DNA from: a bacterium
GTDB lineage: Bacteria > Verrucomicrobiota > Verrucomicrobiia > Verrucomicrobiales > Akkermansiaceae
Reading direction: 5' to 3'
DNA length: 64,000 nt
Assembly (NCBI GenBank): GCA_018222765.1
Contig: JAAEZT010000002.1
Coordinates: forward strand, 170,111-234,110
Positions 28,047-33,182 of this stretch are shown in pieces (the stretch's first letter is position 1; each line of letters begins with the position of its first letter). Below the pieces are notes generated by a model that was given only the letters and a program-made list of their open reading frames with translations, had not been told where the DNA came from and did not search any database. The position numbers and the translations under genes are program-made.

Positions 28047-28479
28047 AAGTGACTACTGGTGATGACAGCGCGCCACATGAAATAATAACCACCGATTAGA
28101 CCTTATCCCTCATAAACATATACTATATATGCACGAATTTCATCTGCGCCTCGGTTTCCCTTACTGACTTTCCCTCCTTCACCTGGAGCTCCTTTTGATG
28201 TTATCCTCTTTTCCAATCACAAGGAAGGTGACGCCCAGAATTTGTGATCTTTAAGAATTTTGGTAAACTTAATGAAATGGCAGGAAATAGTTCTTCGGTG
28301 ACGGGATTGCGCCAAAAGGTGATTGCCTTGTCTTGGTTCCGACCCTGTAACAGGAGGCTTCCGGCGGGCTTCAGGGGCACTCCCCCTCAAGACCCAATCG
28401 CAAGGAGTCCGGGAGAGACTACTCTTAGTCTCTTGCCAATTGGGATCATCTTGCCGACTAGGGGTTTCCCCCATTCATT

Positions 28480-28694
28480 TTAGGGAGGCCACCTGATTGT
28501 AAACGGCTCTCAAAACTGTATCTTTTCTCCTGCTTGAGATGGATGAAACATAAATGAGGTTTCACTACCGAGATTCCTGCAGTCTTACGTTCCGGGAGGG
28601 AACAATGAGACAAAAGGAAGTCTTCGGGAAATCTTATCGTTTCTTGGGTGGCTAGGGAAAAGCGAGAAGGCTTTCTCTAGCCACCCTTTTTTTC
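28480..28694 (+). ncRNA. Candidate small RNA or attenuator leader ahead of the nitric oxide synthase gene
   Basis: Three spaced hairpins end in an intrinsic terminator. GGCCACCT at 28487-28494 can pair over eight positions (six Watson-Crick, two G-U) with the 5' arm of the terminator at 28646-28653, which would give an antiterminator. Chance pairing of this length is possible. The 5' boundary is arbitrary. There is no match to any RNA family known to me. Confidence 0.25.
28646..28694 (+). terminator. Strong intrinsic terminator directly upstream of the nitric oxide synthase start
   Basis: Perfect 10-bp arms GGGTGGCTAG (28646-28655) and CTAGCCACCC (28677-28686), with further partial pairing in the loop, followed by TTTTTTTC. 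The T-tract is on the + strand only. It ends 18 bp before the ATG at 28712, while the previous + strand gene stopped 600 bp earlier, so it either ends a small transcript or controls read-through into the next gene. Confidence 0.85.
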
Positions 28695-28711
28695 TTGATG
28701 CACTTGTATGC

Positions 28712-29779
28712 ATGACTTCACAAACTTGGAGTCAGACGCACCCCTATACAGATCTCCCAATGAGGACCACTCCAAATATCGATTCTCAAACCCCACCCCA
28801 TGTTCACCTCCCAGAAGGGGATTTGTCCGGCAGCGCCCTCGAGCAAATGGCAAGACTGGCTTGGCGTAACAACGCACACTGCATCGGACGTCTGCTCTGG
28901 GAAACGCTACACCTTCTTGACGCGCGGACTGCAGACAGTCCTGACGAAGTGTTCGAGGCTTGTCTTCGTCACATTGATTTCGCTACCAACGACGGATGCA
29001 TCCGCCCCACCATCACCGTGTTTGCGTCCGCCGAACCGAGTGAGAAAGGCATCCGCTTATGGAACAGCCAACTCATCCGATACGCTGGCTACCGCGCTGC
29101 CGACGGAACAGTTCTCGGTGATCCGGCCGAGACCGAATTTACGGCTCGGGCAATTGAAATGGGATGGCAGCCGCCCCGCGACCGTTCCGCTTTCGATCTT
29201 CTGCCGGTCGTGGTGGAATTCCCCGGCCATGCGCCACGCTGGTTTGAGCTCCCGAGGAAGACCGTCATGGAGGTCCAGATTTCCCATCCCGAATTTAGTT
29301 GGTTTGCAGAGATGGGGCTGAGGTGGCACGCGCTACCCTCTGTTTGCAATTTAGCGCTCATCGGAGACGGTCAACGCTTCACTGCCGCCCCCTTCAGCGG
29401 TTTCTATATGGGCACCGAGATCGCTTCGCGAAACTTCGGTGACGAGACGCGTTACAACTTACTTCCCGAAGTGGCAGACCGCATGGGAATCGATCGATCC
29501 AAGCGGTGCATGTTGTGGAAGGACCGAGCCCTTGTGGAACTCAACACGGCGGTGCTGCACTCCTTCCGCGAAGCAGGAGTAGCCATCGTAGATCACCACA
29601 CTGCTTCGGCACAATTCATGCAGCATGTTCAGCGAGAGGAAAAGTGCGGGCGCCCAGTGCCCGGCGACTGGTCGTGGCTGGTGCCTCCAATGTCCGGTTC
29701 GGCCTGCCCGGTCTTCCATCGATATTACGATGACAGCCGCCCAACGCCGTCCTTTGTCAAGCAGGACAAACCGTGGTAA
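28712..29779 (+). CDS. nos: Bacterial nitric oxide synthase oxygenase domain protein
   Basis: 355 aa; the length and sequence match the stand-alone bacterial NOS oxygenase, which makes NO and citrulline from arginine using heme, a reduced pterin and electrons from a separate reductase. Visible marks: the heme-binding WRNNAHCIGR with proximal Cys C57 and stacking Trp W51; RPTITVF; NSQLIRYAGY; GWQPPRDRSAFDLLP; substrate Glu E236 in FYMGTEIASRN; R240; VDHHTASAQF; and the pterin-site DWSWLVPPMSGS (W320, W322), ending FVKQDKPW. No reductase domain or zinc Cys pair is present, as in other bacterial enzymes. Odd points: His replaces the Arg usually before the heme Cys, and V211 stands where Bacillus enzymes carry Ile. 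Start at 28712; an in-frame ATG at 28760 is also possible, and neither has a clear ribosome site. A sensor kinase and regulator follow. Confidence 0.95.
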   Translation: MTSQTWSQTHPYTDLPMRTTPNIDSQTPPHVHLPEGDLSGSALEQMARLAWRNNAHCIGRLLWETLHLLDARTADSPDEVFEACLRHIDFATNDGCIRPTITVFASAEPSEKGIRLWNSQLIRYAGYRAADGTVLGDPAETEFTARAIEMGWQPPRDRSAFDLLPVVVEFPGHAPRWFELPRKTVMEVQISHPEFSWFAEMGLRWHALPSVCNLALIGDGQRFTAAPFSGFYMGTEIASRNFGDETRYNLLPEVADRMGIDRSKRCMLWKDRALVELNTAVLHSFREAGVAIVDHHTASAQFMQHVQREEKCGRPVPGDWSWLVPPMSGSACPVFHRYYDDSRPTPSFVKQDKPW

Positions 29780-29923
29780 ACGAACCATCATCGAAATCAA
29801 TTGGGCCATCATCTATTTGAGATAGGATGAAACTTGGGCTGGCACTCCAATCCAAGACCGAAAAAGTGCTGAAAAATATGGCCCAAGATGGGAATTCCCT
29901 GTTTGGTATCAGCAGCCTAAGGA

Positions 29924-32545
29924 ATGAGTGAGCATGAACGAATCAGGGCGCTTAAGCGCTACGAAATACTCGACACGCCCCCTGAGAGGGAATTTGACGA
30001 CATCACGCATCTTGCAGCGCAGATTTGTGAAACGCCCATTGCGCTAATCTCCCTCGTAGATCAAGAGCGGCTGTGGTTCAAAAGCACCGTGGGACTGGAG
30101 CTCTGTGAGATGCCGCGAAACATCTCGTTCTGTGAGAACGCCACTCTGAGTGAAGACCTATTTGAGGTGTTCGACGCCTCAAAGGACAAACGGTTTCTTG
30201 CAAACCCTCTTGTCACTGGAGAGCCACACATCCGTTCCTATGCAGGCGCTCCTCTCGTCACGCCAGACGGCCAAAACCTCGGAACACTCTGCGTCATCGA
30301 TCAGTCTCCACGGGAGCTCCGTGAAGAGCAGCGTGACGGCCTTAAGCGCTTGGCTGCTCAGGTCGTGCGACAGCTCGAAGTGCGCCATGACCGGATGCAA
30401 CTGATCAGGAACACTGAGGAGTTGAGGGAAAGCAATGAGCGGACCGAACAGATCATCGCCTCCGCGCTAGATGCTGTCATCACGATGGGAATGGACGGCT
30501 TGATCGTCAGCTGGAATCCGCAAGCGGAAACAATTTTCGGTTGGAGCGCCGGGGAAGTCATTGGGAAAAGGATGTCGGAGGTCATTATCCCTCCTTCCCA
30601 ACGCGAGGCCCATGAACGGGGACTCGACCACTTGGCCAAAACCGGAGAGGCGAGGGTTCTCGATCGCCGACTTGAAATGACCGCGCTGAACAAGGAGGGC
30701 AAGGAATTCCCCATCGAGCTGACGATCTCCCAAGTCCGGGTGTCGGGCCAACCCTTCTTCAGCGGCTTCATTCGCGACCTTAGTGCGGTCAAGGAGGCCG
30801 AGACGAAGCTCAAACGTACGAGCGAATTACTCTCCGCCGTAGGCCATCTCCAATCGGGCTATATCAGCCGGGATCATGCCGGAGCAGCGGAAACCTTCGA
30901 CGCCCTCTTGCAACTTCTTTTGAAATTCACCGACAGCGAATACGGTTTTGTGGCCGAGGTACTTCGTGATGAAAATGGAGACCCCTACCTTAAGACCCAT
31001 GCCATCACCAACATTGCCTGGAACGATGAAATGCGTGCTTTCTACGAGAAGCACAAGGCAGCAGGCCTGGAATTCCGTAATCTCAAAACGCTGTTTGGAG
31101 TAGCCTTGATTACTGGTGAGACGGTCATCTCCAACGACCCCTCCACGGACCCGCGACGGGGTGGGCTACCACCAGGTCATCCCCCCATGAACTCTTTCCT
31201 CGGAGTGCCCATTAAGCAAGGTGAGGAAATAATCGGTATGGTGGGCGTGTCCAATCGTCCAGGTGGTTACGACCCAGAGATTGTCGAAGAAATTGACCTT
31301 CTTTTCTCCACCTATGGTACGATTATCAGGGGCTTTCAGTTCGCAAAACAGCAGCAAGCCGACCAGCAGCGCATCGAGGCCCTCAACCTGAACCTTGAAG
31401 CACGGGCCGCTGATTTGGCGGAGGCCTTGGATATGAATCGACGGGTGGAACGCGAGCGTCGGGATGCTCTTGAGGAATACTCCGCAAACCTCGAACAGCG
31501 GGTCGCTGAGCGCACTGCAGAACTCGAGCAGTCCCAGCGTCAGTTCCAAGACCTTTTTGAGTTCGCGCCTGACGCGCTGGTCATGACCGATCAGGCTGGC
31601 GTGATTCAGCTGGCCAATCTCCAGTCCGAGCGGATCTTCGGATGGAAACGAGAGGAGTTGCTTGGGCAATCGGCAGAAATCCTTCTTCCCTTCTTGCGGG
31701 GTGAGTTTCCTGGGGAACAGCTCAATATCTCGGAAGATACCGAAAATGCCAGCCTCTCTGGCAGGCGCAAGGACGACACGGAATTCCCCCTAGAGATCAG
31801 CTTCAGCCCGATACAAACGGGAGACTGCAAACTGGTCACAGTCGCCATGAGGGATGTATCGGAACGAATTCTCTTGGAACAAGAGGTGGCGAGAATCAGT
31901 AGCCATGAGCAAGAACGTCTCTCACGCGAGCTGCACGACCACCTTGGTGCATATCTCGCTGGAATTGCATTCCGTTGTAAGACAATGGCAGAGACCCTGA
32001 AGACCAGAGCCATTCCCGAGGCAGAGCACGCCCAGCAACTCGTAGGCCAAATCAATGACGGGATCAATTTGGTCCGGAATTTTGCCCGCTTGCTTTCTCC
32101 AGTGGATGTCGCCTCCGGGGGCCTCGCCGCGGGGTTGACCGGGCTCGCTCGAGAGATGGAGACGATTTTCGAAATCGACTGCCAAGTGAATCTCTCCAGT
32201 AAGCTTCCGCCTCTCACTCAGGAGCAAAGCATGCAGCTCTACCGCATCGCTCAGGAGGCCATTCGCAATGCCGTGCAGCACGGGAAAGCCCCGCACGTAT
32301 CCCTCTCCATTCAATGCGACGCAGACTGCCTGACGATGACAATTGCGAACGACGGCGTGCCATGGAATCCTGAGGAAAAACCCCGGCTGGGACTGGGACT
32401 GCGAACCATGCGGCACCGGGCCGCCGGTCTCGGTGGATCGTTCACCATTCACGCCAAACCCGATGGCCTCACTGAAGCAATCTGCATACTTCCCTATCCA
32501 ACTGAAACGGAAGTAACCCCAGCTCCTCCCGATGAAAAAAATTAG
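29924..32545 (+). CDS. GAF-PAS-GAF-PAS sensor histidine kinase (HisKA_3 type)
   Basis: 873 aa, no transmembrane segment, so a cytoplasmic sensor. Order: GAF 1-155 (RYEILDTPPEREFDDIT, a common GAF entry); PAS about 170-295 (ALDAVITMGMDGLIVSWN, FGWSAGEVIG); second GAF about 305-475 (NSFLGVPIKQGEEIIGMVGV); coiled coil 480-540; PAS about 540-655 (FEFAPDALVMTDQAGVI); HisKA_3 with the phospho-acceptor His near 671 in SRELHDHLG; and an HATPase with N-box QEAIRNAVQHG and a GLGLRTM G-box. GAF or PAS domains may bind heme, flavin or small ligands; no ligand can be assigned here. The gene starts 144 bp after the NO synthase gene on the same strand and overlaps the response regulator by 14 bp, so NO or a redox cue is an attractive but unproven input. 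Confidence 0.92.
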   Translation: MSEHERIRALKRYEILDTPPEREFDDITHLAAQICETPIALISLVDQERLWFKSTVGLELCEMPRNISFCENATLSEDLFEVFDASKDKRFLANPLVTGEPHIRSYAGAPLVTPDGQNLGTLCVIDQSPRELREEQRDGLKRLAAQVVRQLEVRHDRMQLIRNTEELRESNERTEQIIASALDAVITMGMDGLIVSWNPQAETIFGWSAGEVIGKRMSEVIIPPSQREAHERGLDHLAKTGEARVLDRRLEMTALNKEGKEFPIELTISQVRVSGQPFFSGFIRDLSAVKEAETKLKRTSELLSAVGHLQSGYISRDHAGAAETFDALLQLLLKFTDSEYGFVAEVLRDENGDPYLKTHAITNIAWNDEMRAFYEKHKAAGLEFRNLKTLFGVALITGETVISNDPSTDPRRGGLPPGHPPMNSFLGVPIKQGEEIIGMVGVSNRPGGYDPEIVEEIDLLFSTYGTIIRGFQFAKQQQADQQRIEALNLNLEARAADLAEALDMNRRVERERRDALEEYSANLEQRVAERTAELEQSQRQFQDLFEFAPDALVMTDQAGVIQLANLQSERIFGWKREELLGQSAEILLPFLRGEFPGEQLNISEDTENASLSGRRKDDTEFPLEISFSPIQTGDCKLVTVAMRDVSERILLEQEVARISSHEQERLSRELHDHLGAYLAGIAFRCKTMAETLKTRAIPEAEHAQQLVGQINDGINLVRNFARLLSPVDVASGGLAAGLTGLAREMETIFEIDCQVNLSSKLPPLTQEQSMQLYRIAQEAIRNAVQHGKAPHVSLSIQCDADCLTMTIANDGVPWNPEEKPRLGLGLRTMRHRAAGLGGSFTIHAKPDGLTEAICILPYPTETEVTPAPPDEKN

Positions 32546-33182
32546 CGTTTTAGTCGTAGATGATCACCCCTTTTTCCGGAGCGGCCTGATACAATGGTTA
32601 AATCAGCAAGAGCTGGTTTCAAGCTGTGCGGAAGCAGGCTCGGTAGCCGAGGCCAGAATGGCAGTCGAGGAGGCAGAGCCGGACGTGATCCTCATGGATT
32701 TGAGGCTTGGCGATGGAGAAGGCCTGGAACTCACCCGAGAACTGGCGCCAGAACATCCGGAGATCCGGATCGTCGCATTGTCACAATTCGACGAGGACCT
32801 TTATGCCCACCGGGCCCTTCAGGCGGGAGCCCGAGGTTACCTGATGAAATCCGAAGCCACCGAATCGGTTCTAGCTGCAATTCGGACCGTCATGAAAGGA
32901 GGAATCCACCTCAGCAGCGTGATGGCTGCCAAGCTCCTCCAGAATATCTTTCCCGATCCGATTTCAAATTCCGTGGACCTTGCTAAGTTGTCCGACCGCG
33001 AACTCCAGGTATTCCAACTTCTGGGCGCCGGAAGGAGTACGGTTGAAATTGCCAGCCACCTAAAATTAAGCCCCAAAACAGTGGAAACTTATCGGGAGAA
33101 CCTGAAAAAGAAACTGGCCCTACCAGATGGAGCTGCCCTGCTACGGGCTGCAACCCTCTGGTCGGAGGGCGGAAATAGCTAG
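32532..33182 (+). CDS. NarL/LuxR-family response regulator
   Basis: 216 aa. The receiver domain (1-125) shows the acidic pair D10-D11, phospho-acceptor D56 in VILMDLRLG, and the conserved Lys in GYLMKSE. A LuxR-type helix-turn-helix occupies 145-205 (LSDRELQVFQLLGAGRSTVEIASHLKLSPKTVETYR). It overlaps the sensor kinase gene by 14 bp, so the two are translationally coupled and form a cognate pair; HisKA_3 kinases normally pair with this regulator class. Target genes are unknown. The upstream NO synthase gene or the genes that follow are candidates. Confidence 0.95.
   Translation: MKKISVLVVDDHPFFRSGLIQWLNQQELVSSCAEAGSVAEARMAVEEAEPDVILMDLRLGDGEGLELTRELAPEHPEIRIVALSQFDEDLYAHRALQAGARGYLMKSEATESVLAAIRTVMKGGIHLSSVMAAKLLQNIFPDPISNSVDLAKLSDRELQVFQLLGAGRSTVEIASHLKLSPKTVETYRENLKKKLALPDGAALLRAATLWSEGGNS

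Follow-up and report, generated by a model that had tools for sequence, protein, structure and literature searches.

The locus described here raises the question of how a bacterial nitric oxide synthase (NOS) is switched, and a review of the field notes that little is known about the effect of regulators on bacterial NOS gene expression (PMC9500659). The window, a stretch of 64,000 nucleotides from an uncultured Akkermansiaceae bacterium, carries on one strand the intact genes of a NOS, a histidine kinase and a response regulator (Table 1). Pfam assignments and coordinates confirm the sequence-only reading, in which a complete NOS is followed on the same strand by a soluble GAF/PAS kinase and an overlapping LuxR-type regulator; the overlap of the latter two genes is 14 bp. 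A kinase with HisKA_3 and HATPase domains adjoining a REC-GerE regulator of the NarL/LuxR type has the composition of a two-component system. All three genes are under purifying selection, with computed dN/dS values of 0.16-0.23 for the NOS, 0.12-0.17 for the kinase and 0.02-0.07 for the regulator, and NCBIfam assigns an equivalog to none of the three proteins. The gap between the NOS and kinase genes (29801-29887) contains a nine-base inverted repeat (TTGGGCCAT/ATGGCCCAA) and a GGGAATTCCC palindrome, which are largely conserved in four species.

Table 1. Genes and predicted control features of the NOS locus (positions in the window)
Feature	Position	Strand	Basis or remark
Candidate regulator-binding element	28459..28499	+	Two GGG..CCC inverted repeats; relatives-only weight matrix
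Predicted extended -10, CTGTATCTT	28516..28524	+	Inferred from spacing shared with other element copies
Predicted 5' leader, strongly structured RNA	28531..28759	+	Folding energy against shuffles
Terminator-like hairpin and run of 7 T, just 5' of the NOS gene	28646..28693	+	GGGTGGCTAG...CTAGCCACCC TTTTTTT
NOS oxygenase, 339 aa	28760..29779	+	PF02898, 453.5 bits (E 6e-136; curated cut-off 22.7); longer frame from annotated start 28712
Soluble histidine kinase, GAF-PAS-GAF-PAS-HisKA_3-HATPase_c, 873 aa	29924..32545	+	Pfam
PAS1 of the kinase, FixL-like	30470..30784	+	His230 codon 30611-30613
LuxR/NarL-type response regulator, 216 aa, phospho-acceptor Asp56	32532..33182	+	Response_reg and GerE

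The synthase and its occurrence in the phylum

The NOS is encoded by a single copy in its genome and contains PF02898 as its only domain, with no fused Fe-S/FAD reductase, while its closest solved structure in a PDB search is 2flq (E 3e-105). As aligned with about 68 relatives, the heme Cys, the proximal Trp, the substrate Glu and both C-terminal Trp residues are invariant, which bears out the heme Cys, substrate Glu and pterin Trps picked out from the sequence at first reading. An active-site Trp position, which we take to be W587 of rat nNOS, is occupied by Phe in the window NOS, by His or Tyr in most relatives of more than 54% identity, and by Trp in most NOS outside that group. At two further positions, Val and Ser, as in mammals, stand in place of the Ile and His of Bacillus NOS; the residue correspondence with nNOS and Bacillus comes from the alignment, together with the customary numbering. 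The NOS of Geobacillus stearothermophilus (2flq), Bacillus subtilis and Staphylococcus aureus share the domain, the heme Cys, the substrate Glu and the pterin Trp, and likewise have no attached reductase, whereas the window NOS differs from them in the Phe at W587, in Val/Ser for Ile/His, and in the dedicated two-component pair alongside. A missing reductase gene near the NOS is normal for bacterial NOS (PMC9500659), and the window enzyme looks like an ordinary bacterial NOS under a seemingly private two-component switch.

Translation of the NOS probably starts at the ATG at 28760 rather than at the annotated 28712, because three relatives, whose NOS are 92-96% identical, have a stop codon between the two positions. 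In these relatives, the upstream ATG at 28712 is the start of a frame of five codons (MTSQI or MTPQI) that closes ahead of the NOS, while in the window (28712-28760) the stop of this small frame has been lost and the frame is fused to the NOS.

NOS genes occur in 18 of 388 sampled Verrucomicrobiota genomes and in 102 of the 387 genomes taken from the order, and freshwater verrucomicrobial metagenome-assembled genomes (MAGs) with NOS were reported in 2017 (PMC5673642). The earlier supposition that NOS is rare in this lineage was therefore wrong, and rarity is not the point of interest. The freshwater MAG NOS come from the same phylum, but toxin genes are not adjacent to them and no regulator is described there (PMC5673642). 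The majority of the NOS genes in these samples have unrelated neighbours and no such kinase-regulator pair.

Several other arrangements were observed. Three loci from another family of the order (L171 9463-12660, L172 9662-12853 and L173 7317-10508) encode a NOS fusion of about 1063 aa that also includes two cyclic-nucleotide-binding domains together with one BFD-like 2Fe-2S and one FAD reductase domain, and the same fusion, truncated by the contig end, is found in another family of the class (L073 3-2648); it resembles the self-sufficient NOS of Sorangium. Another regulator, a sigma-54-type response regulator, lies 35 bp before a NOS in L063 (7994-9473).

Linkage of the synthase with the kinase-regulator pair

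Kinase orthologues of at least 54% identity come from 15 genomes of the order sample, with G536 left out (partial match, 46%); a scan of genome contigs with the kinase alignment returned four true orthologues, all already in this set, plus distant kinases. A NOS lies within 7.5 kb of the pair, on the same strand, in nine of the 15 genomes. G720 makes a tenth, in which a contig break falls within the regulator; the order kinase-regulator-NOS can be deduced there because overlapping regulator halves end the kinase contig and the NOS contig. The expectation that in most relatives the pair would not stand apart from a NOS thus holds (10/15, nine observed and one deduced), while chance would bring two genes within 7.5 kb of each other in about 0.4% of 4-Mb genomes, an expectation far below 1% per genome.

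The linked loci belong to two GTDB families and show two gene orders. NOS-kinase-regulator, the order whose conservation was to be checked, is confined to three close species (G000, the window genome, with G404 and G395), and its conservation throughout the phylum is rejected; G435, G438, G709, G642, G625 and G681 have kinase-regulator-NOS on the same strand, with 0.6-1.3 kb between pair and NOS (about 7 kb in G435). The NOS is elsewhere than the pair in G600, G317, G431 and G447, and is missing from G407, where the pair is present. The linked NOS group in a single clade (support 100/98), in which three GTDB families are intermingled, and the genes flanking them vary, which suggests that the cassette moved horizontally as a unit. 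Since both flanks and gene order differ among loci, the linkage has outlived rearrangement.

That the neighbours are together by chance or by passive co-inheritance, with no functional link, is highly improbable. Close relatives do share ancestry, and the cassette may stem from one event, but the linkage spans two families and is kept amid different flanks and in both gene orders, which already disfavours this reading, and so does the common pair-specific element in front of the NOS described below.

G391 represents a natural deletion, as it has lost most of the kinase and the regulator, with only the first codons and an internal scrap of the kinase remaining, and has kept the NOS (92% identity, dN/dS 0.17-0.19). 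Because this NOS stayed under purifying selection after the loss, NOS can work without the pair. In L136 (8861-9628), a 255-aa protein with its own element copy in front is encoded between kinase and regulator, and it matches no known Pfam or NCBIfam family. Literature searches among openly accessible papers found no description of a NOS two-component module or of a NOS beside H-NOX.

A pair-specific element, a predicted promoter and a structured leader

The linked loci contain a DNA element of 38-43 bp, which consists of two GGG..CCC inverted repeats spaced by about 22 bp, followed at fixed spacing by a predicted extended -10. The window copy reads TAGGGGTTTCCCCCA TTCATTTT AGGGAGGCCACCTGATTG and is located about 300 bp upstream of the NOS; relatives carry one to three copies of the form AAGGGTGACCCTTACTCATTTTCAGGGTGAAACCCCGATGCGG in the regulator-NOS gap. 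A weight matrix trained on the relatives' copies alone, with the window copy left out, gives the latter (28460) 19.3 bits and the G404/G395 copies 22.4 bits, against a best score of 11.0 bits in reversed sequence. Its 20 hits in 1.3 Mb all fall at these loci, and untrained copies were also found behind the regulators of G269 and G317.

The relatives' form occurs in 7 of 17 chosen genomes and in 5 of 234 family genomes, all of which carry the kinase-regulator pair. The element follows the pair rather than the NOS, because the NOS-only genomes G591, G506 and G515 have no copy; G431 and G447 have the pair, and no element was seen in them. The window form has a single copy in each of four genomes, its own, G404, G395 and, with 2 mismatches, G391, with no copy in 13 other congeners, no second copy in its own genome at up to 3 mismatches, and no hit of the backwards-pattern control in any genome searched. 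A genome-wide repeat was considered and rejected (1-4 copies per genome), and a known RNA was likewise discarded (no Rfam match).

The element stands after the regulator gene in relatives and upstream of the NOS in the window clade, and two copies sit just behind the NOS. In several relatives it lies 20-70 bp behind the regulator gene and 0.6-1 kb before the NOS, with a small PEP-CTERM-like frame between. The pair might serve mainly to control small PEP-CTERM surface proteins, with the NOS riding along or as a minor target, a reading which we regard as unlikely. In G435, G709 and other relatives, the stretch from regulator to NOS codes for a PEP-CTERM-like tail (the small open reading frames at this place in G625 and G720 have no NCBIfam match and were read as PEP-CTERM by eye), and the sole element copy away from the cluster, on contig C281 of G642, directly precedes the gene of a surface protein with a PEP-CTERM domain. 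Against this, the window clade has no PEP-CTERM frame left, the single element copy of the window genome faces the NOS, and the NOS linkage survives rearrangement.

A separate inverted repeat of about 100 nt with a G tract in its loop (GAGTTGAAGTCGCCAAG...GGGGGGGG...CTTGGCGATTTCAGCTC) is found in the regulator-NOS gap of L136, L138, L142, L145 and L146 and behind the regulator in L091. Its stem varies between loci by changes on both sides, and it has no Rfam match in L136, L138 and L145.

By a count made by eye, 15 of the 22 element copies have TG[CT]A at 20-23 bases behind CCGA, across diverged spacers, with extended -10 sequences such as TGTATAAT in G438, TGTAAAAT in G642 and TGTATCTT in the window; AAAACTGTATC at the predicted -10 is invariant in four species. 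The element copies may thus mark a promoter with an extended -10, as the fixed distance to TG[CT]A and the normal promoter position of the G642 C281 copy suggest. Transcription is predicted to start near 28531, which would place the repeat centres near -65 and -42, where activators commonly bind. Judged by co-occurrence, the putative binder of the element is the LuxR-type regulator, although the element could belong to another factor.

It is quite improbable that the element works as an RNA or terminator feature, or binds some other regulator, and is thereby uninformative on the LuxR-type regulator. The relatives' copies do lie close behind stop codons, and the repeats could form small hairpins, but the conserved unpaired linker CATTTT, the fixed -10 spacing and the lack of a T run do not fit such a feature. 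Nor do the restriction of the element to genomes with the pair, its placement ahead of a gene both in the window clade and at G642 C281, or the missing Rfam match.

The predicted leader RNA (28531 to 28765) has a computed folding energy of -85.4 kcal/mol (z -5.4), with none of 200 shuffles as stable, and has no Rfam match. Among four sequences, both-side changes are seen in 7 pairs of the leader. The leader ends in a long terminator-like hairpin with seven T at 28687-28693, the stem of which is preserved in G404/G395 through compensatory changes, while its T run is broken in G391, which lost the pair; 3 pairs of this hairpin differ on both sides among the four species and are still paired. Attenuation in the leader before the NOS is a reasonable guess.

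The possible signal and the proposed control of the synthase

The best solved matches of PAS1 are the heme-PAS of FixL (E 5e-18) and then that of DosP. The proximal His that ligates heme in FixL aligns with His230, which is kept in 11 of 12 orthologues, while the distal Arg of FixL is not kept, a Leu being at the aligned place (read by eye). Such a proximal-type His is also found in PAS domains that bind no heme. The HDH motif of the kinase, with His671, is invariant in 12 orthologues. Most plausibly, the kinase would respond to a diatomic gas or to redox state via the FixL-like PAS1.

The locus resembles FixL-FixJ and NarX-NarL in having a soluble PAS kinase with a FixL-like PAS, a LuxR/NarL-type regulator, and inverted repeats at a predicted -42/-65. 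It differs from them in scoring far below the NCBIfam cut-offs for FixL, NarX and NarL (112 bits for the kinase against the FixL equivalog, cut-off 850), in its two GAF domains, and in having a NOS as the putative target.

H-NOX genes neighbour related NOS or the pair, which hints at an NO theme. In G591, G579 and G714, which have no pair, H-NOX and an HNOBA kinase gene lie behind the NOS gene on its strand; G506, also without the pair, has H-NOX and an HNOBA kinase within 7 kb of the NOS, with a LuxR-type regulator between, and in G431 and G447 the pair itself is about 7 kb from H-NOX. This suggests that NO-sensing signalling around NOS recurs in the order. The H-NOX/HNOBA kinases of these sister lineages are NO-responsive and stand beside NOS, whereas the window genome has no match to H-NOX (HNOB domain) and its kinase has no HNOBA domain. 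The loci with a NOS beside H-NOX and HNOBA kinase genes, in genomes that have no pair, are L139 (9540-13784), L141, L164 (9432-12904) and L144 (247-7982).

The pair might instead read out NO, or the product of the NOS, and regulate other genes, with the NOS constitutive. The FixL-like PAS1, the H-NOX sensors adjoining other NOS and the retention of the NOS without the pair in G391 are compatible with this arrangement, to which we give a low probability, as no other target is visible in the genome, where the element has no other copy at up to 3 mismatches.

The sequence-only reading proposed that the pair senses or controls NO production. Control of the NOS by the pair is well supported, and beyond the original evidence, through the linkage over relatives (10/15) and the pair-specific element before the NOS, while sensing of NO by the pair is a part that we still infer. 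We consider it reasonably probable that the locus is a NOS expression cassette, in which the pair senses a signal and activates the NOS promoter ahead of a structured leader, with positive feedback. The soluble kinase would sense an intracellular signal and phosphorylate the LuxR-type regulator, which would bind both inverted repeats of the element and activate the promoter with the extended -10. The transcript would cross the structured leader, where the terminator-like hairpin may act as a second checkpoint, and would continue past the end of the NOS to include the kinase and the regulator, which would provide the positive feedback. The NOS would then convert arginine to NO, drawing its electrons from a general cellular reductase like other oxygenase-only bacterial NOS.

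More tentatively, and with the balance somewhat against it, the locus may be an NO autoregulatory circuit, in which a heme-PAS kinase senses the NO (or O2) that its own NOS works on, and the regulator acts on the NOS promoter from a private tandem operator, with attenuation in the leader; this cassette would have been transferred among Verrucomicrobiales, while in sister lineages H-NOX kinases would do the same job. If true, such a circuit would represent the first case in which a bacterial NOS is shown to be under a two-component switch. A private regulator, together with a mapped candidate operator, promoter and leader, makes NOS switching directly testable.
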